50,845 nucleotides of DNA from Deltaproteobacteria bacterium. Its GTDB lineage: Bacteria; Myxococcota_A; Polyangia; JAAYKL01. How positions within the stretch are numbered: position 1 is the stretch's first letter; each line of letters starts with the position of its first letter. Under the pieces are notes generated by a model that saw only the letters and a list, made by a program, of their open reading frames with translations, was not told the origin of the DNA and ran no database searches. The stretch spans positions 1 to 50,845 of the forward strand of contig JAUVDV010000035.1 of assembly GCA_030595125.1 (NCBI GenBank). Direction: 5' to 3'. Shown here piece by piece: positions 21,932 through 39,238 of the stretch. The translations under genes and the position numbers were made by a program.

Positions 21932-21968
21932 TAGGGGCGATTCCATGTAATCGCCCTGATCTGAAGTG

Positions 21969-23483
<1,515 letters not shown>

Positions 23484-23496
23484 GGATCTCTATCTA

Positions 23497-23549
23497 CCGC
23501 GGGGTGAACCCCACGGCAACGATGTCCATAGGACAAGTCCTGCGGACTA
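23497..23549. repeat. REP-like double palindrome
   Basis: Palindrome CCGCGGGGT-gaa-CCCCACGG is followed after ~18 bases by AGGACAAGTCCTGCGGACT. The layout is that of 32016-32071: a GC-rich hairpin, then a short CAAG-x-CTGCGG palindrome. It lies directly after the SEC-C gene. Confidence 0.55.
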
Positions 23550-23612
23550 TGTTTTGCACGGCTTGTCGGCCGCCCAGCGCGCCAGCGCTAACGCGTCCAT
23601 CGGAGGAGCCAA

Positions 23613-23745
23613 CCCCGGCGCGTCAACCAGCGACGGAAGCCTCCGCGCCAGCTGCGACAACCGATCCCGCCGCTCCATTTCGGCTTTCTGATCCTCATCG
23701 TCCATGGGGAGGACGATAGAGCCTTGGGGGCTGTGATGCAATGGG
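23613..23745 (-). repeat. Direct repeat, copy A, flanking the toxin-antitoxin pair
   Basis: An imperfect ~133-bp sequence repeated in the same orientation at 24595-24727. Read on the minus strand both copies can encode a similar peptide (DRLSQLARRLPSLVDAPG here), so the repeat is probably the remnant of a duplicated short gene. No good ribosome binding site precedes either reading frame, and I do not call it an active gene. Otherwise 23484-23841 contains only this repeat and the REP-like element. Confidence 0.65.
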
Positions 23746-23841
23746 GAGTGGGGTTGGGCTTGGTATGGTGCAGGGCCAACCTGAAAGTCGGCGGCAATTT
23801 GGGAGGTGGCGCGCGCTTCTTTCATCGCTTGTACAATTTGC

Positions 23842-24237
23842 TTACTTTGGAGGCTCGACGACCGGACAGAGGCCAAGGCCGTCCGAGCGACTTACGAACC
23901 GTCGGTCAAAGGTCATCATTCTGTCCGTATGCTGGCAACCCGCAAGATGCAGAGCGTCGGCGAAGTCCAGGCCACTCTCGTGCCAGTCAAACGCCAATGA
24001 TACCCTTTTCGGATCGGATAGCCGAACGTTGGGAAGCCCAATGAGCAATCGAAATGCGCCCGATATATCCGCAGCAGAGAAGGAATACGCGTAGCGCAGA
24101 ACCCATTCGGTCTCGATAAGCACGGTCTCGCAGAGGAAGACCGCACCCTCGGAGAAGCACTGAACCGAACGCTTGAACTGTCCTTCGTCGTCCCTGGTAA
24201 GCAGACGAACGACAACATTGGTGTCCACGGCGATCAT
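23842..24237 (-). CDS. vapC: VapC-type PIN-domain ribonuclease toxin
   Basis: A 131-aa PIN domain protein of standard VapC length. The acidic metal-binding residues are D5 (MIAVDTNVVVRLL), E42 (LIETEWVLRYA), D94 (GLDFADALHLAGC) and D111 (MTFDRRFV). VapC toxins cleave tRNA or rRNA when freed from their antitoxin. The ATG overlaps the stop of the antitoxin gene by 4 bases, the normal antitoxin-first order. The pair sits between two direct repeats at the edge of the defence-type island. The catalytic set is complete, so the toxin is probably active. The target RNA cannot be predicted. Confidence 0.9.
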   Translation of the reverse strand: MIAVDTNVVVRLLTRDDEGQFKRSVQCFSEGAVFLCETVLIETEWVLRYAYSFSAADISGAFRLLIGLPNVRLSDPKRVSLAFDWHESGLDFADALHLAGCQHTDRMMTFDRRFVSRSDGLGLCPVVEPPK

Positions 24238-24473
24238 GACCGGCGCTCCCGTGCGCCCCGCTCGATGGCGGCCTCCATATCATCGAGCGTCCGGGCCGGA
24301 CCATCGTTATATAGGCAGCCTGCGACATCCTCAAGCCGGGTTTGCGCCGTAGCAGCGCGGGAGCGCTCTTTGTCGACGGGGAACATGATGATGACCCTGG
24401 TGTTGGGCTTGACGTCGAGTTTCTCAAGCGGCCTTACTGTCTCGCCGTCATATACTCCTTCTATCTCCCGCAT
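24234..24473 (-). CDS. Antitoxin, AF2212/DUF104-like
   Basis: A 79-aa protein. The N-terminal half (EGVYDGETVRPLEKLDVKPN, then TRVIIMFP) matches the AF2212-like/DUF104 antitoxin fold, a small beta-structured DNA-binding element found with PIN toxins. The C-terminal half is a charged helix expected to bind and block VapC. It is not an AbrB-type VapB. The ATG at 24473 follows AACAGGAGGTGATCGG, an unusually strong ribosome binding site that fits the need for excess antitoxin; a longer frame from 24497 lacks this. Autoregulation with VapC of the promoter upstream is expected from the family. Confidence 0.85.
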   Translation of the reverse strand: MREIEGVYDGETVRPLEKLDVKPNTRVIIMFPVDKERSRAATAQTRLEDVAGCLYNDGPARTLDDMEAAIERGARERRS

Positions 24474-24594
24474 CCCGATCACCTCCTGTTGCGTCACAAC
24501 TACTCAACTGTAACTATACACGATTCCAGCCTCTTCGACCGGGGAAACTCCTGGCTCATCGTCTCGGGCGACTCGTCGCAGTCCTTCGGGGAGC

Positions 24595-24727
24595 ATCCCG
24601 GCGCGTCAACCAGCGAAGGCAACCTTCGCGCCAGCAACGACAGACGATCCTCGAGTTCTATTTGAGCTTTCCGTTCCGCATCTTCCATGAGGAGGACGAT
24701 AGAACCTGGGGGGCTGTGATGCAATGG
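24595..24727 (-). repeat. Direct repeat, copy B, flanking the toxin-antitoxin pair
   Basis: Second copy of the ~133-bp repeat at 23613-23745. The minus-strand reading DRLSLLARRLPSLVDAPG is shared with copy A almost residue for residue. The interval 24474-24807 holds this copy and the presumed toxin-antitoxin promoter; nothing else was recognised. Confidence 0.65.
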
Positions 24728-24807
24728 ATTGTGAAAGATCCAAGGTACAAGATCGTGTCATCTGGGTGGGGCATATGCCAAGTGGAGAGTAGCGTCCTCG
24801 GACGCTC

Positions 24808-25617
24808 TTATTCCTGTCCTTGAAAAAAGGCCAAGTGTGATCGCAGTGCGGCACATGCAGAACCGACCAGAATACCTAGAGCGTCATCCAGTTGTATTTC
24901 GCACTCTCGGAAAACAGTTCGAAGATCATCGCGGGGTTCGGCCAACCATCCTTCACCGCCCCTATGATTAATGAATGTAACACCGTCGTCCATCGCTTGT
25001 TTCTCGACTCTCTCCCACCCTCCTTCGGAGATTCCAAAAGCAGAGGATGCAAGGGAACTCTGAAAGAAATCGACACCATTTGCGTATCCTGCATCGTGAA
25101 CGAAATGGTTACGGATTGCATATAGGACACTGATCGGCCAACCATAGGATTCTCTTAGGGAGTGAAAGAACGGTGCGGCAACGGATTCCGCTGCAGATTT
25201 ACGCCGAATGAAATTGGGTACGAGTTTAGGAAGTTCCCGGTCGTTACTGCATTTTTCCCGAGTACACACTACCTGCCCAACCATGCCAGTAAGGCTATCA
25301 GCGAGTGCCCACATTGAAGTTAAATATGCTTGCACACCGATGAAACGTGCGTGCCTAAACTTCACTGAGATTGTGCCCAAAAGAACGCGACCTTCGCTAT
25401 CGACATTCAATTCGAGGCGGTCCAAATAATGAAAAGCATCCGCCCGAGCATCAAGGGTGGCAAGCCAATGTTCAATACTGTTTTGGTATGACACAATCCT
25501 ACGAAAAGATTCCCAGGTCTTCTCTGACATGTCGCCGCGCTGGCTTCCCAGCGCTTCGTCAACTTCGCGGAGTTTTCCTTTAGCGTCATTAAGCCGTTCT
25601 TCTAGAGATTTGGTCAT
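24808..25617 (-). CDS. HEPN-like protein coupled to the STAND NTPase (putative defence effector or regulator)
   Basis: A 269-aa, mostly helical protein with no signal peptide. Residues 169-174 read RNHFVH inside the helix VLYAIRNHFVHDAGY, which fits the R-N-x3-H signature of HEPN ribonucleases and of HEPN-like scaffold domains. The N-terminal ~60 residues are charged helices, possibly a coiled coil, and residues ~65-95 form a short beta segment. I recognise no named family. The ATG overlaps the stop of the 1335-aa NTPase gene (ATGA), so the two are made together. HEPN domains in defence loci usually cleave tRNA or other RNA upon activation. That role here is inferred from one motif and the context. 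A dimeric non-catalytic HEPN fold is the main alternative. Confidence 0.6.
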   Translation of the reverse strand: MTKSLEERLNDAKGKLREVDEALGSQRGDMSEKTWESFRRIVSYQNSIEHWLATLDARADAFHYLDRLELNVDSEGRVLLGTISVKFRHARFIGVQAYLTSMWALADSLTGMVGQVVCTREKCSNDRELPKLVPNFIRRKSAAESVAAPFFHSLRESYGWPISVLYAIRNHFVHDAGYANGVDFFQSSLASSAFGISEGGWERVEKQAMDDGVTFINHRGGEGWLAEPRDDLRTVFRECEIQLDDALGILVGSACAALRSHLAFFQGQE

Positions 25618-28600
25618 TCCCCTCGATCCTCCTTCGCCTGTTCTTTTTGGTCTCGGAGTTCTGCCTCTGCCACTTCAAGGTTCCAGACCCAGAATGGTTG
25701 GAATACGGGGTCCTCTTCGTCATCCAGAAGTTGTTGGGCAGTGCGGACACTTTCAATGAACAACTCAGGCACTTCACCACGTGTGCTGGACCAGGACTTC
25801 GAACCTTGATCTGTTAAAGCGCGGAATGGTGAATACCGTTCTTCGGGGGTTAGCTTGTTTGAGAACACAAGAACCGGCTTCGCTATTATTCTCCACACTT
25901 GACTACCCGTTTCGTACATGCCTCCAATTCTCGCCAGTCGGTATACGTCGTCTTTTTCGGTTGCTGACTCTATCCGTTTGACCAACTCATGCGGAAGTAC
26001 GTGTCCTTCTGGATCGACATCGTGGAGAATACTAGGCAGATCGTAGCCGACGGTAGTTGAATCATCGACGAAATCGACGATATTTTTCACCGCCTCTATC
26101 GTCCCTGCAACACTGACCTGTGCGGCGGTGATAGGTAAGACGTATCGGCTTGGGCGTGAGTGATGGCCTATTGCGTGAAAATTGCTATATCCTCTTTCCA
26201 CCTCTAGATCCCGCCTACTTGTAAGGATCTTGAGTAACCACGTGACCGGCATTCGGCCATGGAGTTTCAGGATTTCTTCGAAATACCATGAAACCATATG
26301 ATCAATACCATCGAGGTCGGGAATTCTCAGCAATTGGTCCATCATCCACGGAACAGTGCTCTTTGGAAATTCGGATGGGTCCCTTTCGCGGAATGTCCAG
26401 TACATGGACTCAACGAGTACATGAACCGCAGAGACAATCTGTTCAGTCGGTATTTTATCAAGCGCTGTTTCCAGGGTGTCGCAAAGGCCCTCCCAGTCAT
26501 GCTCTATCGCCCATGAAATTATGGTGATGAACAATGGGCCTCTGTCGTTGTTCAGGAAAAGATCACCAATAGGTCTTAGAAATTCCAGTTCCGCAACGGA
26601 GATACCATCAATTTTTCGTGCGGGTGCGTAGTGAGCGTAGATCCCGCCCAGAAGAAGGATTCGAGTGCTATCATCGGAGCAGTTATCAAGAAGTTCTTTT
26701 ATGTAATCTAAAGTAGTTTCTTTCTCGGTCTCTCTGATTTTTTCTGTCCATCGGCGTGCGGCTACCACTGCGAATTTCTTCCTGGGGGTATCATCCGATC
26801 TTGCGAGTGTATTCCGTACAAACGAGCGAACGCCGTCATTCTCTTGGGCATGCTCTCCGAGACGCCACGCAACACTTTGTACCAGAGGCAGATCCCGTGC
26901 ACTGAAAAATCGTTGGGCTCTGTCAAAAAAAGCGCTGATGGACTTCTCGTCCTCTTCTTTCAAAAGAAGCATGGCCTTGGAAACAGCCGCGTCATCCGAT
27001 TGCTTACTGCTTCCTTGCCGCCGTAAAGGCTCGAACTCGATTGCTAAACTGTCGCCTTTGTAGAGTTCCTCCAAGTTATTAGCTGCTTTTTTTAGTTCGT
27101 CGTCTTTCTCAAACTGGATATGCCAAACCCACAGTGCACGTGCGGCAGACAGTTCTTCCAGTTTATTCTCCCTTCCTCCTAGAGTACCCTTAGCCCAAGT
27201 AAGGTTTTCCAAAAGTATGGAGCGAAACTCACCTTCCGCCTTTTCTCCCTGGAGTAGGCATCGATTGACGGTAGCGTGCGCTTCCGAAACTATTTTCCAC
27301 AGAACTATTCTAGAATCGATGTGTAAGTTTTCGTCTTCGAGAAGCTCCTTCATCCGCTGAACCAGTGAAACGCGTGTTTCCCACGCGGGTTGGCCCGGAC
27401 CAATGGTGTATTTGTTCCAATGTATTGCCCGATCGTCGCTCCAGCTTACGTGTCGCTCAACCGCTATTGCGGGTATTATTAGAGACTCCAGAACACTTGC
27501 AAGAGTCGATGTCAGAGATTTAAACTTGACGCGATCAAGAAGCTCCAATCCGACAACCTGCGCTGCGGCGTGGAAGTCACCCCAGAAGTGAGGGCTACCC
27601 TCCAGTGTACGTCCGATAAGCCGTCCGGCCCGTTTCCCATCGTTGGGAAGGCCTCTGGGCAGTTGACTACCGATGTCGGCTTCGGCCTCTGACAAGTCGC
27701 ACAACTCGCGTAGAATTTGTGTCCTCTCATCTTCTGTCTGTGCACCAAAAGCGGCGTGATATACGGCCCATGCAAGCGCCAAAACGACGTCATTTTGAGT
27801 GATTTCGCGGCTACGCAGGAGGCCCTCAACAATTTCTGCATCTAGCGAAGAAGCACGAAGACTGCTGCATAGGGACACAGTATCTGAAGGACGAACTGCT
27901 GCTACATCTATAAGAACTTCGGCAACTAGTTGCCCGATGGGTGCCTTTATCTGTGATAGCTTCTCTTGAATTCCTTCGAAGAATGGACTTAGCAGCGGTA
28001 CGGGATTATTCGAAAGTCCTAGAATCATCTCCGTGCGAGCTACAGCGGTTAACACAGACCGGTTGGTGGAACTGACGGTGCCACTCAAGACAGACTGAAG
28101 TACTGCGGTTATCAGTCCTTTAGCATCATCGGACGGTATTACAGGCTGGTCGCCGTGACCAAGGTCAACCGATAACCACTTCATCAGAAGATGGTCTCGC
28201 AGAACATCCGGTTTGATTTCAAGCAGTCGCTTTCTGGCTCCGCGTTCCACTATAGCGCGACGGTCGATTAGATTAGAAAGCAGCTGTTTTGTTTTGGTGT
28301 CTGTGTCGACTCCACTGCCTTCTCTCAGGAGATTGATCGAGGCAGGATCCTCTCTGTTTACCGGGCCAATCAGCGATATCCAACGAAGCAGATACCGAAT
28401 TTGATCACGTGGGAACTGGTTCTGCTGGTTAACCACCTCGTTGAGGTATTCCTCAGCCACCTCTTCTGCCTCTGTGGGAACTTGGGACAGGTCTCCATGA
28501 CTTTCCAGTAGATATATTGCGAGGGTCAGCCAAATGGGATGCTGTGAAAACAGTTTCGATAGTTTTTGCGCGGCGTTCTTGCGCCAGGGCTCGGGCTTAC

Positions 28601-29621
28601 TATTCAGCTTTCCAGACGAAAGCAAATCGAAACACATCTCTTCAGCCGAAGGTGTCGACAACTCAACCACAGGCAATTCGTCTACCTGGCGTTTTATCCG
28701 TGGTCCCCGAAGAAAACGAAGGACGGGATCTTTGGGGGAGCGCACAGCTACGCACACTTTCCAACCTGCCGCTCGTCCAACATGACTTCCCAGCTGTTCT
28801 GTAAGTAGTTTCAGGATTTGGTCGGTCTCTGGTTCATCGACGATGAGCAAAGTTCGACGCTCTGGGACGATCCCTTGAAACCAAGCGTCGGACATCTCCA
28901 TGGTCGTGATATTTGCCCATAAGACCTGCCAAGCGCCGTCAGCAGCGATTTTTTCGCCGGCTTCAACGACTAGCCGGGTTTTACCGATACCGCCCGTTCC
29001 GTGGACCAGAAGGAATTGTTTTTCTGTGGAGAGAAAATCCGTAATCTTCTCTACTTCAATTTCACGACCGAAACACTTCCCGATTTCAGCACGTTGTAGG
29101 TAGGGCTCGCTTTGCGGCAGTTTCTCTCGAACTTCTGGGAGAGTGAGGACGGTTCGTGTTGTATCTCCAAAGTAGGAATTGCTGACCTCGGGGTACTTAT
29201 CCAGAAGTGCATTAAGATCGGCCCTTTCCCAGTAGTCAATATCCAGATTCAGTGCTGAGAAGACAGGAACTAACTCGTCTTTCCATCGCTGAAAATCTGT
29301 TGAATTGAAGGTCGCGTTCGTTACCAAACGCCAGTGGGTGATATCCTTCCACTGCTCGTATCGGCTGTTGCCGGATTTGCGATATTCGGAGATTTTGGAG
29401 GCTTCTTTTTTGGCATCTGCTATTGCTTTTGAAGCAGATTCGTCCTCGTGGTGCTTCGCTTGATAAACGAGGGTTCCATCGCCTGATCGCGCGTCTTGGC
29501 CACCATCTTTGCCCTGTCGCCCAAACAATGCAGCTTTAGAGTCTTCAAAAAAAACAAGCGTGGTTGCCAACGCTTCGAACATCGCGCCGCTTGTTATCTT
29601 CCCCCAATTTCTATCAGCCAT
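25614..29621 (-). CDS. PD-(D/E)XK nuclease-STAND NTPase protein (Avs-like antiphage candidate)
   Basis: A 1335-aa multidomain protein. Residues ~10-150 form a restriction-endonuclease-like (Mrr/Cap4-type) domain with E16, D43 in GKDGGQDARSG and Q54-A-K56 in LVYQAKHH, the E-x-D-QxK active-site pattern. Residues ~180-450 form a STAND/NACHT-like NTPase with Walker A G208TGGIGKT215 and Walker B TLLIVDEPE (D262, E263). The remaining ~850 residues are helical, probably a TPR/HEAT-like sensor. This order (nuclease, NTPase, repeats) is that of Avs antiphage proteins, which recognise conserved phage proteins and then degrade DNA. The ATG follows AGAGGTC. Its composition is clearly poorer in G+C than neighbouring genes (22 of 60 bases at 27061-27120), a sign of transfer. 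Coupling to a HEPN-like gene is unusual. Confidence 0.82.
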   Translation of the reverse strand: MADRNWGKITSGAMFEALATTLVFFEDSKAALFGRQGKDGGQDARSGDGTLVYQAKHHEDESASKAIADAKKEASKISEYRKSGNSRYEQWKDITHWRLVTNATFNSTDFQRWKDELVPVFSALNLDIDYWERADLNALLDKYPEVSNSYFGDTTRTVLTLPEVREKLPQSEPYLQRAEIGKCFGREIEVEKITDFLSTEKQFLLVHGTGGIGKTRLVVEAGEKIAADGAWQVLWANITTMEMSDAWFQGIVPERRTLLIVDEPETDQILKLLTEQLGSHVGRAAGWKVCVAVRSPKDPVLRFLRGPRIKRQVDELPVVELSTPSAEEMCFDLLSSGKLNSKPEPWRKNAAQKLSKLFSQHPIWLTLAIYLLESHGDLSQVPTEAEEVAEEYLNEVVNQQNQFPRDQIRYLLRWISLIGPVNREDPASINLLREGSGVDTDTKTKQLLSNLIDRRAIVERGARKRLLEIKPDVLRDHLLMKWLSVDLGHGDQPVIPSDDAKGLITAVLQSVLSGTVSSTNRSVLTAVARTEMILGLSNNPVPLLSPFFEGIQEKLSQIKAPIGQLVAEVLIDVAAVRPSDTVSLCSSLRASSLDAEIVEGLLRSREITQNDVVLALAWAVYHAAFGAQTEDERTQILRELCDLSEAEADIGSQLPRGLPNDGKRAGRLIGRTLEGSPHFWGDFHAAAQVVGLELLDRVKFKSLTSTLASVLESLIIPAIAVERHVSWSDDRAIHWNKYTIGPGQPAWETRVSLVQRMKELLEDENLHIDSRIVLWKIVSEAHATVNRCLLQGEKAEGEFRSILLENLTWAKGTLGGRENKLEELSAARALWVWHIQFEKDDELKKAANNLEELYKGDSLAIEFEPLRRQGSSKQSDDAAVSKAMLLLKEEDEKSISAFFDRAQRFFSARDLPLVQSVAWRLGEHAQENDGVRSFVRNTLARSDDTPRKKFAVVAARRWTEKIRETEKETTLDYIKELLDNCSDDSTRILLLGGIYAHYAPARKIDGISVAELEFLRPIGDLFLNNDRGPLFITIISWAIEHDWEGLCDTLETALDKIPTEQIVSAVHVLVESMYWTFRERDPSEFPKSTVPWMMDQLLRIPDLDGIDHMVSWYFEEILKLHGRMPVTWLLKILTSRRDLEVERGYSNFHAIGHHSRPSRYVLPITAAQVSVAGTIEAVKNIVDFVDDSTTVGYDLPSILHDVDPEGHVLPHELVKRIESATEKDDVYRLARIGGMYETGSQVWRIIAKPVLVFSNKLTPEERYSPFRALTDQGSKSWSSTRGEVPELFIESVRTAQQLLDDEEDPVFQPFWVWNLEVAEAELRDQKEQAKEDRGE

Positions 29622-29720
29622 AGATGACCTCTGAACTCACTTCTCAGAATCCTTGGTTACAGACTGTATCAGCGAATCACTGTTATCGATGATGACGGGG
29701 TGGCAAAATGGCTGCAAAAC

Positions 29721-29867
29721 TTAAGCCTTCAATTGGTTACCGGCAGCATCCGGGTGACCGATTCCGAGAACGTCGCACAGCTCGGTGAGGAACAGATCCT
29801 TGTTCTTCTGCTCGGCAGCCTCGGATTTGGACCACCTATCGATGAATGCGACTACATCGTTTGACAT
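29721..29867 (-). pseudogene. N-terminal stump of a type IIG/MmeI-like DNA methyltransferase
   Basis: A 48-codon frame starts MSNDVVAFIDRWSKSEAAEQ and continues FLTELCDVLGIGHPDAAGN before stopping. This segment resembles the conserved N-terminus of very large class I SAM-dependent DNA methyltransferases (type IIG, MmeI-like) of restriction or related defence systems. Nothing of the nuclease, methyltransferase or target-recognition domains follows, so it is a truncated relic. It lies 100 bases upstream of the STAND gene on the same strand and marks this locus as a place where defence genes come and go. The match is made from memory of the family and rests on a short sequence. Confidence 0.6.
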
Positions 29868-29967
29868 CAGAACTCCGAAAGGGATGGAACGAGCGTCATT
29901 GCCCCTCCCACATCGTCATCAGTTGAAATTTCACAATAACCTCATGGAACGCGCATGTCGAACCTAT

Positions 29968-30300
29968 CTGGAATACGTCACCCAACGCGCCAATTTCTTA
30001 AAAACGAGTTTTTTTCCCAGCCGCTCTAGGAAATGTTTTCGTCAACGTAGAATTTCCACGTCTCCCAACGTGCGGATTTTTCAAAAACGAGATTTTGCCC
30101 CAGCCGCTCTAAGGGAATTATTCAAAAACGTGGTTTTTTCCCAGCCGCTCTAGGAAATGTTTTCATCAACCTGGAATTTCCACGTTGCCCAATGGGGAGT
30201 TTCTATTTCGACCTGGAATTTCCACGTTGCCCAATGGGGAATTTCTATAACAACCTGGAATTCTCACGTTGCCCAATGGGGAATTTCTTCAGAAACGAGA
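29968..30300. repeat. Array of 40-42-bp tandem modules of two types
   Basis: About eight units in ~333 bp. The type B module begins CTGGAATTTCCACGTTGCCC and is repeated exactly every 42 bases at 30171, 30213 and 30255. Degenerate B copies lie near 29968 and 30049. The type A module carries CCCAGCCGCTCTAGGAAATG and occurs near 30016, 30099 and 30140. Between copies the spacing drifts to 40-41 bases, so no single reading frame crosses the array. Whole units repeat and no unique spacers lie between them, so it is not a CRISPR. Function unknown. Confidence 0.85.
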
Positions 30301-30415
30301 ATCCTTGTGGCTCGATGTCGGAAATTTTGGGAAGCTACTGCGCATTTTGCGAGCGGGAACGCTGTTTTTTCTGGGTTCGCTCGGATTCGTACAGTTCCTG
30401 CCTTATTTGCCTCGC

Positions 30416-30466
30416 TCAGACAGTCCTCGACTATTCCTAATAGGCGAACCTCAGACAGTCCTCGAC
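30416..30466. repeat. Short direct repeat, 16 bp, two copies 35 bp apart
   Basis: TCAGACAGTCCTCGAC occurs at 30416-30431 and again at 30451-30466, in a gene-free stretch downstream of the tandem array. The rest of 30301-30680 shows no convincing gene. Confidence 0.7.
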
Positions 30467-30552
30467 CATTCAGAGGTTTCCCCCTCGGCTGGGGAAAGGT
30501 AGAAGAAAAAAGTTACCCTAAAGTAATTTCCAGCGGTTCGTTGTGTTTGTGA

Positions 30553-30574
30553 GAGCGAGTGCAAGCACTCGCTC
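30553..30574. other. Perfect 10-bp hairpin
   Basis: GAGCGAGTGC-AA-GCACTCGCTC is a perfect inverted repeat with a 2-base loop in the gene-free region between the defence-type island and the next gene. No T-run follows on either strand, so it does not look like a standard terminator. It may be another dispersed palindrome. Confidence 0.6.
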
Positions 30575-30683
30575 GGTGAAGTGGCCTCGCGGGAACTCTC
30601 TTCATGGTCTGCGAAACTCGGTTCGCCCTGGGGTTTTTCAACGGAGGGAGCGATTGCGAGCGCAGTCAATTCGCGGATCTTCC

Positions 30684-30764
30684 CAAGCCCGCTGGGCTTG
30701 ACCGTTGGTTTCCTGAGTTCACGGGAACGTAGGTCATCCTGACCGCGCCCTCATCAGGGCGCGG
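30684..30764. repeat. REP element, same family as 14129-14211
   Basis: AAGCCCGCTGGGCTT, a ~30-base diverged spacer, GGTCATCCTGACC and the hairpin CGCGCCC-tcatca-GGGCGCG match the right-hand REP beside the transposase remnant in order and orientation. It marks the right end of the accessory island. From here to 31037 only short GC-poor sequence with two repeats of GGTTCTCAA was seen. Confidence 0.75.
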
Positions 30765-31037
30765 GACGAGAGAGGTTCACCGCTCGCTATCGAGCAGGTC
30801 ACCGCTCCCCATTGAGACGGGGGGTTCTCAACATTGAGAAGGGAGGTTCTCAATATTTAGACATTCGGGCTCTTTCCCATGTTCCGGTGATATCGTCGGT
30901 TTCCCCCAATAAGCAATGATCAAGGGTTGTTCGGCGAAAAATCCGGTCAACAGCGGATGCTGGCACGTTTCTTCCAATGCAGCGGCGCATCAACAGCCGC
31001 ACAAGGGCGGCCAAATCCAAAGTAGAGGAGATGAAAG

Positions 31038-31985
31038 ATGGAAGAAACAATTGGAAAGTTAACAGCCGGAACAGAGAAGGGAGACGAGACCATGTGTCAC
31101 GAGGAACAGACCAAGGAAGAGATCGAGGCGGCCGAGAACGAGGTGCAAAAAGAGGATTTCCAGGACGAGGACCTGGATAAGTCGTTGCAGAGTATATTGC
31201 CGGAGGTGACGGCGATCCCGGAGCACGAGGTTCGAAAGTACATCGCGAGCATTGTGTACGTGGTGGCGCTCTCAATGCGTATCCTGAGGGCATTCACAGA
31301 AGACCGCGAAAGAATAGCGTCCCTGTTCTCGCCGCAGGGGTTTTTGCTAAAGACATATGACGATCTCATCGATCGCATCAAGGGACTCTGGCAGGCCGAT
31401 GTCCTTTTAAGGCAGGGTGTGGAAGGGAAGAGACCCGGTCGGGAGCTGATGGAACGAGCCCGCTGGGCATGGCAAAAACTGATTCGGGACGCCGAGTACG
31501 TGTTCGGAAACGACCCGGATCGAAAGGAGATCGTCGCGGATCTGCGCGCTGGCAAGGGCACGCTCAACAGGGCCGACGACCTTTTGTCGGTATCGGTGCT
31601 GTTCTCAAACAACTGGGATGAGATCAAGGATCGTTGCAACGTTTCCAGGGAGGAGATCGACGAGGCGAGGTCTCTTGCCCTGCGCATCATCGAGATCGTG
31701 AGCCCGCAGGTAAACGTGAACGAGCTGGAAGAACTGCGCGCCGTAAGAAACGGTGCTTTCGAGTACTTGAGGAGGGGCATCGACGACATCCGCGCCGCTG
31801 CCGCGTTCGCGTTCCGTGACGAGCCGTCCCGCCTCAAGAACTATCCCAGCCTCTTCTCGGGCAGGAAGAACCGCCGCCGAACGACAAAGAACGGCAACGG
31901 CGCAACCGATACACCTGTCGAAGCCGTACAGCCCATCATCGTTCCGGAGCAACCGGAACCGATCATCCAGGCCGTTCAGTCCTGA
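31038..31985 (+). CDS. Alpha-helical protein of unknown function
   Basis: A 315-aa cytoplasmic protein predicted almost wholly helical, with many charged residues. The N-terminal ~50 residues are acidic and probably disordered. The core (~55-265) includes EHEVRKYIASIVYVVALSM, LIDRIKGLWQADVLLRQG and EARSLALRIIEIVSP. The C-terminal ~40 residues form a Pro/Glu-rich tail (PIIVPEQPEPIIQ) after a basic stretch (SGRKNRRRTTKNG). No catalytic motif or membrane segment is visible, and I do not recognise the family. The ATG follows AGAGGAG. REP elements lie on both sides, and base composition is like the backbone rather than the island. A structural or adaptor role is only a guess. Confidence 0.7.
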   Translation: MEETIGKLTAGTEKGDETMCHEEQTKEEIEAAENEVQKEDFQDEDLDKSLQSILPEVTAIPEHEVRKYIASIVYVVALSMRILRAFTEDRERIASLFSPQGFLLKTYDDLIDRIKGLWQADVLLRQGVEGKRPGRELMERARWAWQKLIRDAEYVFGNDPDRKEIVADLRAGKGTLNRADDLLSVSVLFSNNWDEIKDRCNVSREEIDEARSLALRIIEIVSPQVNVNELEELRAVRNGAFEYLRRGIDDIRAAAAFAFRDEPSRLKNYPSLFSGRKNRRRTTKNGNGATDTPVEAVQPIIVPEQPEPIIQAVQS

Positions 31986-32015
31986 TCGAGCCCTATTCCC
32001 ATAGCCCTTCTCAAT

Positions 32016-32071
32016 CCCGCGGGTATAAAACCCGCGGCCACGATGCGCGTCGCGCAAGCCCTGCGGGCTCA
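32016..32071. repeat. REP-like double palindrome
   Basis: CCGCGGGT-ataaa-ACCCGCGG is followed after ~20 bases by AAGCCCTGCGGGCT. The pair resembles 23497-23549 and the right half of 20786-20876. It lies between the 315-aa gene and the FHA regulator. Confidence 0.65.
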
Positions 32072-32112
32072 AAACACTTGATGAAGGCCGGCGTCATCTA
32101 TATATCCGACCC

Positions 32113-33501
32113 ATGGGCGGCGACCACACGAGCACATACAAAGATGTAATCTTCGGCGCGACCGGGGCCAAGCCCGAACCGGTCGTACTGGTGGCCCACG
32201 CGCCGTCCATTGCTGCGGGCGCGGATCGCATCGCCATCGGAGATTCCATTGTCATCGGCAGGGAAAAGGGCTCGGATCTCCAGATAATGGACGCCAACAC
32301 ATCCAGAAACCACCTTTCAATAACGAGCTACAAGCGAGGCTGCAAGATAGAAGACCTGGGCAGCAAGAACGGCACCTACCTGAACGGCAAGCTCATCAAG
32401 AAGGCCAAGAAACTGCCGGACCGGGCGATAATCCGAGCCGGCAATACCATCCTGGTCTTCCTTTCGGACGGCGGCGACATCCTCTCTTTTCGGGAAACCG
32501 ATAACTTCGGGATAGCGGGCAGGTTTCACACCGCCGTGCTGGCGAGAAAACTCCTCGAAGGCACCATGTCGGGCCGCAGCCTGCTGCTCGCGGGACCGTC
32601 CGGCACCGGCAAGGAACTCGCGGCCCAGGCGTTTGCGGAGATCACAGGGAAAAAGCTCGTCATTCAGAACGCGGCCAGGTTCTCGTCGCAGGAAGAGGCC
32701 GCCGCCACGCTGTTCGGCGTCGGACAGAAGGTCTTCTCCAATGTGGAAGCAAGACCCGGCTACATCGAAAAGGCCGACAAGGGGGTGCTGTTCCTCGATG
32801 AAGCTCACAACCTGCCAAAAAGGGTTCAAAAGAGCCTCCTGCGAGTAATAGAAGACCGAGAGCTCGCCCACATAGGCGAGACGCAGACAACACCGGTGGA
32901 TGTGCGGTTCGTATTCGCCTCCAATGAACCGCCGCCGTCCTTCTCCCTCGCGAGAGATCTTCTGGCCAGGCTCAGAGTGGTTACAATCCCTCCCCTGACC
33001 GACCGACCGGCCGACATCCCGAGCATCTTCGATCATGTGCTGGAAAAAGCTCTCGAGCGAACGGGTTCGCCCGCCGGACCGGTGCTGTCGCTCCTGACCG
33101 CAAGCCATTACGAATCGCTCATGCTGGACGGATTCAAAGAAGACAACGTGAGAGGCCTGATAGACATCGCGGACAGGATCGCAACCCGCATCGCCTCGGG
33201 AACCGAGCCCTCAGAAGCGATTTTCGAGATCTTCTCCGAACGCTACAAGACAGAATACCCGTCATTCGAAGAGGCCGAATACGACGAAATGGGAAAAGCG
33301 ACGGCGGAGATCAGGCGGCCGGTCGACGCGACGGAAGACATCTACATGATAGTTGAAGACGCGTACCACAATCACGGCGGCAACGTCTCCGCCATCGAAC
33401 GAGAGCTTCGCGAAAAAGGCATCAACTATTCCAGGCGCAAGATATCCAGGATCCTGGACAAGATCGCCCTCCCCCGCGCCAAGAAGACCAGAAACCATTG
33501 A
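32113..33501 (+). CDS. FHA-AAA+ regulator (sigma-54 activator-like, GAFTGA absent)
   Basis: A 462-aa regulator. An FHA phosphothreonine-binding domain (~44-118) shows IGREKGSDL, SRNHL and NGTYLNG. A bacterial enhancer-binding-type AAA+ domain (~135-370) follows, with Walker A GPSGTGKE and Walker B VLFLDE. A Fis-like helix-turn-helix lies at the C-terminus (NHGGNVSAIERELREKGIN, then YSRRKISRIL). The L1 loop that normally reads GAFTGA is replaced by QKVFSNV, so productive contact with sigma-54 is doubtful. FHA-type regulators are numerous in Myxococcota and respond to Ser/Thr kinases; no kinase is in the window. No Shine-Dalgarno is visible before the ATG. tatA follows after 67 bases. Confidence 0.87.
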   Translation: MGGDHTSTYKDVIFGATGAKPEPVVLVAHAPSIAAGADRIAIGDSIVIGREKGSDLQIMDANTSRNHLSITSYKRGCKIEDLGSKNGTYLNGKLIKKAKKLPDRAIIRAGNTILVFLSDGGDILSFRETDNFGIAGRFHTAVLARKLLEGTMSGRSLLLAGPSGTGKELAAQAFAEITGKKLVIQNAARFSSQEEAAATLFGVGQKVFSNVEARPGYIEKADKGVLFLDEAHNLPKRVQKSLLRVIEDRELAHIGETQTTPVDVRFVFASNEPPPSFSLARDLLARLRVVTIPPLTDRPADIPSIFDHVLEKALERTGSPAGPVLSLLTASHYESLMLDGFKEDNVRGLIDIADRIATRIASGTEPSEAIFEIFSERYKTEYPSFEEAEYDEMGKATAEIRRPVDATEDIYMIVEDAYHNHGGNVSAIERELREKGINYSRRKISRILDKIALPRAKKTRNH

Positions 33502-33568
33502 ATACTTGTCTACCACTTGATGAGAGTATATCTTTCACTCAGTCAGGATAGACAAAAGGAGCTAACAG

Positions 33569-33799
33569 ATGCTTTCACAAGCAGCCAGTATCCCCCTCAT
33601 CGGCATGCCGGGCCTCTGGGAGTGGATCATTATCATAGCGATCATACTCCTCCTCTTTGGAGCCACAAAACTTCCAAAGCTGGGCAAGGGACTCGGCGAG
33701 GGAATCAAGAACTTCAAGTCCGGACTCGGGGGAGACGAAGAAACGGAAGCCGAAACGGCGGACAAGGACAAAAAAGACAAGAAGGAAATGTCGTCCTGA
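33569..33799 (+). CDS. tatA: Twin-arginine translocase subunit TatA/E
   Basis: A 76-aa membrane protein. A short periplasmic N-terminus leads to MPGLWEWIIIIAIILLLFG, the single transmembrane helix with its conserved Gly hinge. An amphipathic helix (KLPKLGKGLGEGIKNFKSG) and a charged tail (DKDKKDKKE) follow. TatA forms the variable-size pore for folded proteins with Tat signal peptides. The ATG follows AAGGAGCTAACAG. No tatB or tatC is nearby, so the rest of the system lies elsewhere. It converges with the lipoprotein gene at 33815, 15 bases away. Confidence 0.95.
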   Translation: MLSQAASIPLIGMPGLWEWIIIIAIILLLFGATKLPKLGKGLGEGIKNFKSGLGGDEETEAETADKDKKDKKEMSS

Positions 33800-33814
33800 C
33801 CAAAAGAATCAAGC

Positions 33815-34963
33815 CTATCTGATCTTTCCCGCAACTCCCTTCACCAGCGGTTTGAGCGCCTCGAATTTGGACAGTCTGGCTTTCACGTCTTCCACCACTT
33901 CCTCGTTGCCGGTCAGTTCCGCGACCCCGTCGATCACCGCCCTCACATCGCCGTGAGCCGCCGAAGCGAGCGTATCCAATGCCGTGCGAACCTTGGTGTC
34001 CTTTGGCGCGAGCTTCGCGGCAGCGTCCAGGAATCCTCTGGGATCGCGAGAGACGACCGCCTTGGCCACGTCGAAGACGGCCTTGGCGAAACCGAGATCT
34101 CCCATGAGTTCATCCACCAGCTCTTTTGGATCGGGCAGCGCGCGTGCCACTACGCCGAACTCCTCCGCGGTGGCTGCCTGAGGAATATTACCTCCACGAA
34201 CGATGGCCGCGTCACAAAGCGAGTCCAACTCTTCGAGGACACCTTCGTGAGCGTACTGGGCTGCCAGAGTGGTCGCCACGAGCACCTCCGCCCTCGACTG
34301 CTGGACTGTCCTGTTGAATGCGGCGATGACCGAGAGGCTGAGATCCACGTCGGCAAGACTTTCCTCTACGGGACGATTCGGATCAAAATAGTCGATTTGC
34401 CGCTCGCCGGCCTTGAGCTTTTCGGCCATTGCGATACGGGCGAAGGCCATCCCGTTCATTGCCTCGTAGGAGACGTTCAGGGCGACCATCATGTTGGCCA
34501 TGGCGTACAATCCCATGTGGGCAGACCGCACTTGTTCGAGGGGCAACCCGGTCGCCTTTGCCATCTTTGTGACGTGGGCCTCGAACGCTTCCGGCTCACC
34601 GGTCGTTGCGGTGGCCCTCACCTTCTTGCCGCCCTTCCTGATGTAGACGAGGTCGACATCGTAAACAATAGTCTCGCCGATCAGCTTTTCGTTGACCTCT
34701 ATTCGAAATTTTATCTTGTCGTCTCGCGCAGCTCGCAAGAACGGGATGACATCGGCCTTGACCATGCGCATTGTCTGTTGCCACTGCATCAACGCGCTGG
34801 TCTCGAAGGTACGAGCGAAGGCTGCGGTCTGGTAGGCGAGCGGCCGGGAGCCCTCCTGCAACATGCTCCTGTTCAAGATCTGCCCACCGACCCCACCGTG
34901 GGCGCAACCGAGTGACACCAATACTATCGTTGAGAATACAACGAACGTTCTGATGCGGCGCAT
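33815..34963 (-). CDS. Lipoprotein downstream of the OmpA-family gene
   Basis: A 382-aa lipoprotein with a signal peptide ending in LVSLGC. The mature part is helical and charged with no linker of the Asp-Ser type, unlike the other lipoproteins here. Segments such as MRMVKADVIPFLRAARDDK, YAMANMMVALNVSYEAMNG and repeated Ala-rich helices toward the C-terminus suggest a helical bundle or coiled coil. I recognise no family. It starts 9 bases after the stop of the OmpA-family gene and is surely co-transcribed. It may act with OmpA at the outer membrane-peptidoglycan interface; that is inference from linkage only. Confidence 0.75.
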   Translation of the reverse strand: MRRIRTFVVFSTIVLVSLGCAHGGVGGQILNRSMLQEGSRPLAYQTAAFARTFETSALMQWQQTMRMVKADVIPFLRAARDDKIKFRIEVNEKLIGETIVYDVDLVYIRKGGKKVRATATTGEPEAFEAHVTKMAKATGLPLEQVRSAHMGLYAMANMMVALNVSYEAMNGMAFARIAMAEKLKAGERQIDYFDPNRPVEESLADVDLSLSVIAAFNRTVQQSRAEVLVATTLAAQYAHEGVLEELDSLCDAAIVRGGNIPQAATAEEFGVVARALPDPKELVDELMGDLGFAKAVFDVAKAVVSRDPRGFLDAAAKLAPKDTKVRTALDTLASAAHGDVRAVIDGVAELTGNEEVVEDVKARLSKFEALKPLVKGVAGKIR

Positions 34964-34972
34964 CTTCCCCCC

Positions 34973-36838
34973 CTATTTTTTCGCTGCCTTCTTCTTGGGC
35001 GCCTTCTTCTTGGGTGTCCCCTTCTTCTTGGGCGCCTTCTTCTTGGGCTTCACCTTCTTCTTGGGCGTCGCCTTGACGGGCTTGGAAGTGATCCCTTTAC
35101 GCTTGGCCCGCTTGCACGATGGATCTACGCCTGTGGGGTGCCCACTTATCTTGAGCACTATGAACTCGACCCTCCGGTTTTGCTCCCATGCCTCCTCGGT
35201 ATGACCCTGCTTGAGGGGGCAGTATTCCCCGTATCCGACCGACCGGATCATCTTTTTCGGCAACCCCTTCTTTACCAGATAGCGCTTCACGGCGGCGGCG
35301 CGCTTCTTGGTGAGCGTAAGATTGTAGCGTTCCGGTCCGCGCTCGTCCGCGTGACCCTGCACCTCGACGAGTTCTATCTGGGGGTTGGCCTTGATGGCCG
35401 CAGCCACCTTGTTGAGGATCTTGAAGGACACCTTCTTGATGACGTCGGAATTGTACTCGAAATAGATTTTCTTGAGGGTCTTGATGACACCGGATGTGAG
35501 CTCCACGTCACCCTTGTCGGGACACCCGTCATCGTCGTCCAGGCCGTTGTAGGTCTCCGGATCGTCGGGACACTTGTCGACAAGGTCCGGTATTCGATCG
35601 CCGTCCCTGTCATCGGTGGGATCTGCCGGATCCTCCGGGCATCCGTCCTCGTCCCGATCCCCGTCCATGTCCTCGGGAACCAGCGGACAGGCGTCCTCGA
35701 GATCGGGGATACCGTCGCCGTCGTTGTCCAGATCCGGACATCCGTCCGAATCCTGGAAGCCGTCCCTGTCTTCGGGATCGTTGGGACATTGATCATCGGC
35801 GTCCCCGATGCCGTCCCCGTCGCGATCCGGGATGGAAGGCTCGAAGGCGAACCCCAGGAACATCCTGTGTTCCATGCTCTGATAACCGTAGCCCGAATTC
35901 GTTTTCCCAGTTGGAATACCGTGGGCGTATCCGACCATCAGGTAGGAGCTCTCCTGCATGTAGAACTTGAACCCTGCGTTGGCTTCCAGTGATGTGTACG
36001 CGGCATTCCCGAACTCCGAGACGAGCTGGTTCCCGTAGAACTCCAGCACGAAATCCATGAGCCCCGGCCACATCACGAAACTCTGGCCGAGCCCGAAGTT
36101 GAGGGTCGAGCCGTACTTGAAGAGCAGTATCTGATCCGGCACGTTTAGGTTTCGCAGGTAATTGTCCTCTTCAGCCTTGATGGGATACCTGGCCCCGACG
36201 TTGATGGCCATTCGATATCTGCTGGCCGGCTCGATGTCGAAGATCAATTTTCCGGAGAGCGCCCCGCCCGGATCGCCGCCCAACAACCGCGGCTTGCCCG
36301 AGGGAGCCTCGTACTGGATCACCGCGCCGATTCCTATGAGGTGCAAGTTCGCCCTGGTGATGTGCATCTTGGCGTGAAAGGCGATGTCGCCGAACGCTCC
36401 CTTGCTGGACCATCCCGTCTTGGTAGGATCGCCCGCCGCGTTTAAACCGTCGTACATGTCGCCGCCGGGGATGATTATCGGAATCTGCGCGCCGATCACC
36501 AACCTGTCGAACAGCCCAACGTCGAATAACAGCCTCGTGGCGATATACTTGTCGACAGTCGTCCTGTTGTATGGGTCGAGGTTATTCTGCTCCACCGCAA
36601 CCCACTCGTGGAACCCGAAATCCAGCACCATGCCGAGGGAAATGGCCAGGTGCGGAAGGACGGGAGTGCTGTCAATTGTGAAGTGTCCCTTTGTGTCCAC
36701 GGCGGGCCGAAAGAGGCTCGGCGCCATACCCTGGCCGTCTTCCACAAGCGGTGTATCCGCGGCGTAGGCGTTGTCCACCGTCAATGAGACTGTCAAAAAC
36801 GCGGCCGCGAGCAAAATGTGTTTGATATAACCCCTCAT
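34973..36838 (-). CDS. OmpA-family protein with thrombospondin type-3 repeats and Lys-rich tail
   Basis: A 621-aa outer-membrane protein. A signal peptide (cleavage near AYA) precedes an N-terminal beta-barrel-like region to ~residue 330. Calcium-binding type-3 repeats follow (~335-440: DRDGDGIGDADDQCPNDPED, DNDGDGIPDLEDACP), then an OmpA-C peptidoglycan-binding domain (VEVQGHADERGPERYN, with the conserved Asp and Arg). Beyond it is a ~50-residue tail of Lys/Pro/Ala repeats (KKKAPKKKGTPKKK). ATG 36838 is chosen because AAAGG lies nine bases upstream; an ATG three codons earlier touches the Shine-Dalgarno. The helper lipoprotein gene follows after 9 bases. The role is envelope integrity, from the family. 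Confidence 0.92.
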   Translation of the reverse strand: MRGYIKHILLAAAFLTVSLTVDNAYAADTPLVEDGQGMAPSLFRPAVDTKGHFTIDSTPVLPHLAISLGMVLDFGFHEWVAVEQNNLDPYNRTTVDKYIATRLLFDVGLFDRLVIGAQIPIIIPGGDMYDGLNAAGDPTKTGWSSKGAFGDIAFHAKMHITRANLHLIGIGAVIQYEAPSGKPRLLGGDPGGALSGKLIFDIEPASRYRMAINVGARYPIKAEEDNYLRNLNVPDQILLFKYGSTLNFGLGQSFVMWPGLMDFVLEFYGNQLVSEFGNAAYTSLEANAGFKFYMQESSYLMVGYAHGIPTGKTNSGYGYQSMEHRMFLGFAFEPSIPDRDGDGIGDADDQCPNDPEDRDGFQDSDGCPDLDNDGDGIPDLEDACPLVPEDMDGDRDEDGCPEDPADPTDDRDGDRIPDLVDKCPDDPETYNGLDDDDGCPDKGDVELTSGVIKTLKKIYFEYNSDVIKKVSFKILNKVAAAIKANPQIELVEVQGHADERGPERYNLTLTKKRAAAVKRYLVKKGLPKKMIRSVGYGEYCPLKQGHTEEAWEQNRRVEFIVLKISGHPTGVDPSCKRAKRKGITSKPVKATPKKKVKPKKKAPKKKGTPKKKAPKKKAAKK

Positions 36839-36904
36839 TATCACCATCCTTTAATTGATACAGACCATTAAAACACGATCTCAATGATACCACACTCGCA
36901 AAGC

Positions 36905-39238
36905 TCATTTACTGAACACCGCGTCAAAAAGAAAATGCCGCCGTGCGTTGTCTGAAGCGCTTATCTCAAAAGAAACCTGCGTCGCATCGGCGCGCAGCAC
37001 GAACGATCTGCCGGACAGCCCGGGCGCGTTGGGAAAGATCTTCTCCCCGAGCACTTCTCCGTCCGCCTTGACCACAACCATGACAGGCGCCTTCCCCCAT
37101 TTCGGCGCCCTGTCTTTGAGGCCGCCATACAATGTTATCCATTTCCACGATCCGTTCAGCGGAGTTCCGATCTTCAGCACCCCATCCTTCCACGGATGCG
37201 CCCATATCAGCTTTCGGGGAATTCTTCGGAACCTTTCCTTCTGAGCTCCGACTTTCCGCCAGCCGTTCCTGCCCCCGAACAACCATCGATCGCCGCTCCA
37301 TTCTCCACGTATTGTCTTCTTTGCCGTCCGGGCGCTGACCATGAGGCGGTCCGGTTTGTCGGAAAGCACTATTCGATCTCCCCCTGCTTTTCTGTCCAGT
37401 CGAAGAACCCTGTAGCGTCCGAAATTCTCTTCGTGGCCGATCTCGTACGGCCCTCCGCTACCTTCCGCCCCAAGATAGAGATCCCGAAAGTCGCCAAAGA
37501 GTCCGTACCTCTCAACCACCCATATTGTCTCGTATCCCATTGGGGAAATGGCGTTTCGACGAGGCAGTACTCCTGAAAACGGATCCGACGCGAGTACAAC
37601 TCCCGCCGGCAACTCGCCGGACCGAATGATAAACGGCGTCTTCATGAAGGCCACTCTGTACCCGCTGCGATCAATCACGAGATCGCCGGCCTCTATCTCC
37701 TCTGCGACGTACTTCTTTGTCTCTCCGATGCCATCCTCGCTGAAGTGTTTCTCGAGAGCCGCGAGGATCAACCATGCCGATGCCGCCACGACGACGGCGG
37801 CGCCAACCTCAAAAACCAGCCATCGACGGGATTTCGCCACCGTTCGCCCTCGCCGGGCAGGTTCGCTCCATTTTTCATCCGTCGCGGCGGTCCCGGCCAT
37901 CGCAATGACACATACCCCTATCCAGAAGCTCATCCAGATGATCGAGTTGAAGGCCACGAACACCGCGTAGACCACTGCCCAGAATGCCATCAAGCCACGA
38001 GTGGTCTTCAGCTTCCAGGCGGCCAGGCCCAGCAAAATGGCGACCCCCCCCAGCTGCACGGGTATCAGCCAGTCGGCCAGATGATGTTTGTACATCTGTC
38101 CGGAGCAGCCGAGCATTCCCCAGAACCACTTGTTGTGCGCGGGGCCGTAGTCGAGAAGCCAGCGAACCGTTCCCGCGTAGAAGGCGTCCGGATCCGCCAG
38201 CACGAAGGGCGTGAAGAACGCCGCCGCGACGAGGCCGGCGACCAGCATGGCCCGAAAAGCTACCCTGATTCCGTGGTGACGAATGAGCCAGATCGCGAGA
38301 AAGGGAAGAAGGATCAGGTTGAACGGCCGCATGGCAAGCGCCAGCCCCATCAGTCCTCCCGCAGGCAACGGTCGGCCCCACAAAACCGCCGCGCACAGCA
38401 GGGCAATCACCGCCCAGTCCACGTTCGGCTCTGCGTAGATACCGTTCCAGTGTATGTCCGGAAGAAAGATATAGGCGGCTAGAGCGAGAAAGAGCGGTCC
38501 GATGGATCTCATTTTGTTGCGAATGCAGATCCCGCCTATTGCAAGGACGACGATCCCGTCGGCGAGCCAACCGGCCCATCTGATATCCAATCCCAGGAAA
38601 TGGGGAGGGAGATGGGCGAGCCAGAGCCCGGGCGGGTATGTGAGCGGAACCTCGGAGCCCACCTGCATCTGATGAAGACCGTAGGGGTTCTCGCCGGACA
38701 GGAATGTGTCCAGCGCGCTCATGACGAGGGCGAGCATATCGCGCCTCGCCGGGTTGATCTCCCACTGCCAGAGTCCGCATGCCCGCACGGCGAGACCGGC
38801 GGCCACAAGAACTCCCAGGGCGATGATTGGCCTGGGGGGCCGCGCCAGTAACAGCGCAAGTAAAGCGGTGCACAACCCGAGAGCGACGTAAATACCGGTG
38901 TCGAGCCTGGGATAGAGACGCATGCCCTGGTAGGTCTGATCGGACAGGAGAACCCACAGAAGTCCGGCAGCTATTACGGCAGCCCCCCGTATCCACCACG
39001 CAACCGCGCCCCTCGCCCAGAACCCCGCGTCGGGCGAATCGCCGGTCTCAACGCTCCCGTTATTCGATTCCGTCCCCGGGCGCCGCCAGAGAAGCCCGAT
39101 GGACAGGGCCCACAGGAGCAGGATGGCGAAGAAAACGGGTGTGGTCTCGAACGGATCCCTGTGAAAATCGCCCACGTAAACCGTCAGCGCAAGCATGACC
39201 GGAAAGCTCAACGCAATCGTTCGGACTGTTCGTTTCAC
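36905..39238 (-). CDS. Polytopic membrane glycosyltransferase-like protein (GT87/DUF2029-like)
   Basis: A 777-aa inner-membrane protein. About 11 hydrophobic segments fill residues 8-500, with a periplasmic loop including RRDMLALVMSALDTFLSGEN, then YGLHQMQVGSEVPLTYPPGL; acidic and YPP-type motifs in this loop are typical of GT-C polyprenyl-phosphate glycosyltransferases. The last ~270 residues form a soluble domain, probably periplasmic. The start is GTG with GAGGG upstream. It is divergent from the LTA-synthase-like gene, separated by 78 bases. The two could build or decorate a surface polymer. The exact GT family is uncertain, and the sugar and acceptor cannot be told. Confidence 0.72.
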   Translation of the reverse strand: MKRTVRTIALSFPVMLALTVYVGDFHRDPFETTPVFFAILLLWALSIGLLWRRPGTESNNGSVETGDSPDAGFWARGAVAWWIRGAAVIAAGLLWVLLSDQTYQGMRLYPRLDTGIYVALGLCTALLALLLARPPRPIIALGVLVAAGLAVRACGLWQWEINPARRDMLALVMSALDTFLSGENPYGLHQMQVGSEVPLTYPPGLWLAHLPPHFLGLDIRWAGWLADGIVVLAIGGICIRNKMRSIGPLFLALAAYIFLPDIHWNGIYAEPNVDWAVIALLCAAVLWGRPLPAGGLMGLALAMRPFNLILLPFLAIWLIRHHGIRVAFRAMLVAGLVAAAFFTPFVLADPDAFYAGTVRWLLDYGPAHNKWFWGMLGCSGQMYKHHLADWLIPVQLGGVAILLGLAAWKLKTTRGLMAFWAVVYAVFVAFNSIIWMSFWIGVCVIAMAGTAATDEKWSEPARRGRTVAKSRRWLVFEVGAAVVVAASAWLILAALEKHFSEDGIGETKKYVAEEIEAGDLVIDRSGYRVAFMKTPFIIRSGELPAGVVLASDPFSGVLPRRNAISPMGYETIWVVERYGLFGDFRDLYLGAEGSGGPYEIGHEENFGRYRVLRLDRKAGGDRIVLSDKPDRLMVSARTAKKTIRGEWSGDRWLFGGRNGWRKVGAQKERFRRIPRKLIWAHPWKDGVLKIGTPLNGSWKWITLYGGLKDRAPKWGKAPVMVVVKADGEVLGEKIFPNAPGLSGRSFVLRADATQVSFEISASDNARRHFLFDAVFSK

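Follow-up and report, generated by a model that had tools for sequence, protein, structure and literature searches.

Several described systems place a protein gene beside a row of short direct repeats. Plasmid iterons and the centromeres of type II and type III partition systems (parC, tubC) combine a protein gene with helically registered direct repeats in cognate pairs. In the type III toxin-antitoxin (TA) systems ToxIN, CptIN and TenpIN, the antitoxin consists of tandem repeats of about 35-45 nt and the known toxins have a beta-rich, MazF-like fold. In TIGR-Tas systems, Nop-domain proteins adjoin arrays in which two repeats of 8-12 nt are separated by 9-nt spacers (PMC12045711). Here we analysed a repeat array in a window of 50,845 nucleotides, contig C25 of a 5.39-Mb draft genome of a Deltaproteobacteria bacterium, together with the genes that adjoin it and its counterparts elsewhere in the phylum.

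The array in the window is real and non-coding. Its eight units start at 30000, 30042, 30083, 30124, 30166, 30208, 30250 and 30291, and the spacing of 41-42 bases from unit to unit rules out a coding repeat, as the original prediction had held. TRF reported a period of 42 with 2.9 copies and 91% matches across 30167-30288, and a period of 83 in the left part, across 29975-30131. The identity at lag 42 is 0.475, compared with a maximum of 0.34 in 2000 shuffles (lags 40-43). The array had been drawn as 29968-30300, where it is indeed present, but it continues a little beyond, to about 30345. It had also been described as a mosaic of two modules. Type B does recur at exact 42-base steps, with copies at 30153, 30195 and 30237 that are the predicted 30171, 30213 and 30255 in another register, and three copies of type A (CCCAGCCGCTCTAGG, one with a CTAAGG variant) are found further left, interspersed with B-like and hybrid units. 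A and B units share a start (AAC..G.AATTT) and an end (GG.AATTTT) and differ in their middles, and they are better described as variants of one unit than as two modules. Direct reading and repeat finding gave no unique spacers, in agreement with the earlier view that this is not CRISPR. The array shares direct repeats with CRISPR but has no repeat-length spacers, no cas genes were seen beside it and an Rfam search of the window gave no match. Among the nine proteins flanking it (21912-39238) no Cas family rose above background, the sole Cas-labelled match being a weak one of DinG (E 3.6e-4) to the sigma-54 activator. A non-coding RNA with repeated hairpins, another of the proposed roles, is a weak option: the folding z-scores were -1.4 and -2.3 as RNA and -0.4 as ssDNA, little better than shuffles, and palindromic units are not universal in related arrays.

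The features around the array are collected in Table 1. To its right, the 315-aa gene is probably under sigma-54 control; the candidate promoter element has one mismatch and is therefore weak on its own. The 22-bp dyads are probable binding sites of the activator encoded downstream. The genome has four related sigma-54 activators, of which those on C25, C171 and C198 lie beside the 315-aa gene or a homologue of it, and the fourth is on C134 (60487-60942; L131). On C198 the FHA/sigma-54-activator-like protein is coded divergently next to the homologue. Between array and dyads a direct repeat, CTCAGACAGTCCTCGACYATTC, occurs twice, 35 bp apart (30415-30471), and partly recurs in C171. On the left, the N-terminal stretch of the STAND NTPase weakly resembles PADLOC PDC-S73, and an adjacent 269-aa gene without Pfam match (24808-25617) would form a candidate defence operon with it. 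The coding regions of the window also carry acidic Asp-Thr/Ser tracts in units of 6, 12, 18 and 24 bp (14459-14558, 16678-16758, 17116-17206, 21023-21106 and 42628-42745), and such tracts are common throughout this genome.

Table 1. Features of the array locus and of a related orphan array. Positions are those of the window unless another locus is named.
Feature	Position	Strand	Remarks
STAND-type NTPase, 1335 aa, candidate defence gene	25614..29621	-	Left of the array; absent at the two other related array loci
MmeI-type DNA methyltransferase, N-terminus remnant	29738..29870	-	Left of the array
Tandem array, eight 41-42-bp units	29968..30345	.	Single unit family; the two main internal variants are AGCCGCTCTAGG and ACGTTGCCCAATGGGG, with hybrids
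22-bp tandem dyads TTGAGAAGGGAGGTTCTCAA	30810..30862	.	100-150 bp upstream of the sigma-54 element; conserved in C171
Candidate sigma-54 -24/-12 element CTGGCACGTTTCTTCCA	30960..30976	+	Precedes the 315-aa gene by about 60 bp; conserved in C171
Gene of 315-aa protein, predicted all-helical, basic C-terminal tail	31038..31985	+	Constant partner of 21/42-bp arrays across genomes
FHA and sigma-54-activator AAA protein	32113..33501	+	Downstream of the 315-aa gene; retained at the paralogous locus on C171
Orphan array related in sequence to that of the window, about 10-11 units	L005 8060-8500 (C113)		No family gene found on the contig

The original prediction depended on the array having copies elsewhere, and it does. 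Contigs C113 and C171 of the same genome each carry a further array of its sequence family, and many arrays of equal period but unrelated sequence adjoin homologous genes (see below). A DNA-level search with the window array found no match in 95 relatives, because the unit sequence is not conserved between genomes. C171 matches the right side of the window, including the array, the sigma-54-like promoter, the 315-aa gene (88% identical) and the FHA-sigma-54 activator. On C113 it is the left flank that matches: positions 29738-29968 of the window are 98% identical to L005 8500-8740 and cover the N-terminus of the MmeI-type enzyme, of which C113 retains more than the window does, the enzyme being truncated on both contigs. 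Despite this flank, the two arrays have diverged to 77%. The near-identity of the flanks suggests that a recent exchange took place between two defence-like loci, with its junction at the array. The number of units varies among the three related arrays. The three loci have different genes on their left, so the defence gene does not qualify as the constant partner; the array was rightly placed beside a defence locus, in that the STAND NTPase and the MmeI remnant adjoin it, but this position is uninformative. The constant partner across paralogues is the right-hand gene, that of the 315-aa protein, whose homologues we call the family. The array does not abut this gene but lies about 740 bp upstream of it in the window, and about 460-740 bp when the window and C171 are taken together. 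This arrangement is unusual among family loci.

Repeat finding next to family genes repeatedly gave arrays of period 42 with unrelated unit sequences, and of period 21 next to genes retrieved with the NCBIfam model NF052641. To assess the association between gene and array we applied a uniform autocorrelation scan to family and control loci alike. Arrays with lags of 20-22, 40-44 or 62-64 were detected at 36 of 55 family loci and at 0 of 27 control loci with sigma-54 activators of the same genome (Fisher 1.4e-9). The other lags at control loci (18, 24, 27 and 60) were mostly coding repeats typical of these genomes. Of 20 held-out loci, picked before scanning, 14 had an array, and two of these 14 belong to other classes of the phylum. 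For the genome of the window itself the figure was 11 of the 12 strong loci, and the twelfth gene, on C198, stops at the contig end. No array was detected at 19 of the 55 family loci, several of them at contig ends. Over 140 kb of other sequence, the scan detected no such array beyond those at family loci, the C113 orphan and the window's 22-bp dyads (30745). Most arrays start less than 100 bp from the gene, 22 downstream, usually just past the stop codon, and 10 upstream. One of these 10 automatic calls, at L087, proved to be a coding repeat, the true array there being downstream. Across the phylum, a family gene with a private tandem array of period 21 or 42 bp directly beside it is the usual pairing. 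Many family genes lie at contig ends (C143, C147, C193 and C198 of the window's genome and several contigs of genome G005). Repeats may break the assembly at these places, and the true arrays may exceed those seen in length or number.

The arrays are private, in that the unit sequence differs at every locus, and their period is 42 (41-43) or 21. Of 52 family loci, 16 had 21 as their smallest strong lag and 30 had 41-43; the remaining six showed lags of 8-18, several of which were coding or low-complexity repeats. Periods of 21 and 42 bp correspond to two and four turns of B-DNA. Where arrays are interrupted they jump by 42, 63, 64 or 85, and the phase is kept. In some arrays a short core of 7-12 bp recurs every 21 bp with free bases between, for example CCAATAT (L048), TATCGGA (L090) and SCGGCT (L088), and in others (L021, L053, L152, L164) near-identical units follow each other end to end. 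The period is 21 or 42 whether the conserved block measures 7, 12 or all 42 nt. Such two- and four-turn periods, whatever the sequence, argue for a helically phased DNA-binding array. Palindromic units were significant in L013, L021, L073, L079, L093 and others; in most arrays they were not, so they are not a defining feature. Homology between the arrays of L028 and L030 was not significant in either orientation. Next to two family genes of G005 (L098 2779-3225 and L105 2618-3064) we found 149-bp repeats, about 14 helical turns, outside the 21/42 periods.

Gene and array duplicate as a single block. In two paralogue pairs, C95/C120 and C27/C69, the alignment runs from the upstream region through the gene and ends at the outer edge of the array. 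For C95/C120 the identities are 0.940 in the gene, 0.923 in the array and 0.48 beyond it; for C27/C69 they are 0.91, 0.83 and 0.41. Codon changes comprise 30 synonymous versus 12 nonsynonymous in the former pair and 38 versus 20 in the latter. These genes are under purifying selection, and the array is nearly as conserved. The left edges of the duplicated blocks are not alike between the pairs.

With a profile of 17 sequences, 47 of 193 genomes in the class and 10 of 113 genomes sampled more widely across the phylum proved to contain the family, and a single genome can carry as many as 14 copies. Within a genome the copies are mostly old and have diverged to 20-35% identity. In a genome-contig collection the A4 profile retrieved three named loci from metagenome-assembled genomes of Myxococcota and Deltaproteobacteria, and a single-protein query (P0001) retrieved no relatives. 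No phage homologue was found with the A4 profile in viral contigs or in other phage searches, and no plasmid homologue was found. Neither the window protein nor the 17 members had a Pfam match. The NCBIfam model NF052641 (PQLLE) shows a weak profile similarity to the window protein (15.2 bits, E 0.013), but this lies far below its curated cut-off of 80 bits, and the model matches one of the 17 members at E<0.1. Of 17 loci retrieved with NF052641, 8 nevertheless have an array of period 21 or 42 bp; the two loci L037 and L038, above the cut-off, had none. Searches with Pfam, NCBIfam and PDB profiles recognised no DNA-binding domain in family proteins, and no nuclease or transposase motif was recognised. 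As the AF2 model of the window protein was poor (pLDDT 58), we modelled the relative L055 instead, which is predicted to be all-helical with a basic tail (pLDDT 77.5). Fold searches of the PDB and viral libraries returned nothing at E<=0.001. Nop5 and Nop56/58 chains recurred over model residues 93-187 with Z of 6.0-6.3 across 77 residues, values that, being below 13, are uninformative for helical bundles, as are the BAR rows likewise found among the structural matches. The Nop rows are worth recording because TIGR-Tas effectors carry Nop domains beside arrays.

We propose a two-part unit in which the window array is the cis component and the 315-aa helical protein would be its counterpart. 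This protein, or a complex containing it, would bind its own array, and we put the chances that the array is a row of binding sites for the adjacent protein at about even. Protein-binding sites had rightly been listed among the candidate roles. Because the repeats come every two or four helical turns, the sites would all lie on one face of the helix, and the bound protein could form a cooperative filament or cluster on the DNA, comparable to plasmid iterons and partition centromeres. The protein-array pairs would be cognate. In the window, with the gene probably behind a sigma-54 promoter with an FHA-type activator, production of the unit would depend on a signal. Candidate roles for such a nucleoprotein array include marking or anchoring of DNA, silencing, autoregulation and mobility. 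Some observations count against this reading: no DNA-binding domain was recognised, 19 of the 55 family loci showed no array, a period of 41 or 43 loses register with the helix over several units, the arrays of the window and C171 do not abut the gene, and the C113 array has no family gene on its contig. A ruler of 21 or 42 nt made of RNA or ribonucleoprotein of fixed length would be expected to give the same periods. Like iterons and centromeres, the unit pairs a protein gene with an adjacent private tandem array of helically registered direct repeats. However, the units described here are chromosomal, many unrelated pairs occur per genome, the unit is commonly 42 bp and neither a replication initiator nor a partition NTPase lies alongside. 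Our searches found no plasmid homologue, and family proteins had no Pfam or NCBIfam match to a known initiator or partition protein family.

Alternatively, transcripts of the arrays could be cleaved into small RNAs that the helical protein binds as guides or scaffolds, in the manner of TIGR-Tas. The layout is the same, a helical protein of about 250-300 aa with an array of 34-42-nt units on its upstream or downstream side (PMC12045711). In L088, L048 and L090 conserved blocks take turns with variable blocks of 9-14 nt, and Nop5 and Nop56/58 chains recur among the weak structural matches. We nevertheless consider this reading unlikely. Many arrays, such as the four with end-to-end units, have no variable spacers, the period stays constant for conserved blocks of any size, and the variable blocks are unchanged between the duplicated arrays of C95 and C120. 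The window has a small set of homogenised unit variants, and the units of many sister arrays are almost uniform throughout, unlike the repeat/spacer architecture of TIGR-Tas. Profile searches gave no Nop or Tas chain and no Pfam Nop domain in the 17 members, and the family is chromosomal and multi-copy, with no phage homologue found. Similarly unlikely is a small mobile or self-duplicating element, whose protein would act on the array as on the subterminal repeats of a transposon, the array marking one of its ends. The edge of the copied block does coincide with the outer edge of the array, a genome can hold up to 14 copies, and the orphan array stands at a third place with a 98% identical flank; yet the copies are mostly too old for a recently active element, the left edges differ between pairs, and neither a nuclease or transposase motif nor a plasmid or phage homologue was found.

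The remaining readings are less probable still. The position of the window array between divergent genes, upstream of the sigma-54-like promoter and the FHA-sigma-54 activator, would suit enhancer or operator sites for the left defence gene or the right operon, with no special link to the family. This is improbable, as better candidates for activator sites lie near the promoter (30810-30862) and at most family loci the array follows the stop codon and is not placed at a promoter. Unit length, copy number and the single small protein gene adjoining would fit a type III TA-like pair with the array as RNA antitoxin. We regard this as about equally improbable: the protein is predicted to be all-helical rather than beta-rich and MazF-like, no Pfam or NCBIfam match to a toxin of the ToxN, CptN or TenpN type was found, and arrays lie downstream more often than upstream (22 versus 10, one of the 10 being the coding repeat). 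In addition, 21-nt units consist mostly of free bases, and those in which just 7-8 positions are conserved cannot be a conserved folded antitoxin. Least probable of all is a neutral minisatellite of ordinary slippage repeats, for which the varying number of units among the three related arrays speaks. Such repeats would not explain why none of the 27 control loci has an array and why, in the 140 kb, arrays are confined to the places named above; nor would they explain two preferred periods irrespective of sequence, or an array conserved nearly like a selected gene.

By the available tests the gene-array unit belongs to none of the systems compared here. Searches of open-licence papers on PQLLE, phased 21-bp repeats and Myxococcota repeat arrays found no matching description. 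Our preferred reading, which we hold with roughly as much belief as doubt, is an undescribed two-part unit of Myxococcota in which a helical protein and a private phased array form many unrelated cognate pairs per genome that would build sequence-addressed nucleoprotein clusters on the chromosome or, less likely, a new RNA-array system. An uncharacterised protein family thereby gains a concrete, testable candidate ligand, its own array. If the pairs are cognate, one genome would hold some twelve mutually orthogonal pairs of protein and DNA array, akin to a dozen different ParB/parS-like addresses. They would offer a natural set of orthogonal repeat-array binders and would raise a new question on the organisation, regulation or colonisation of large myxobacterial genomes.
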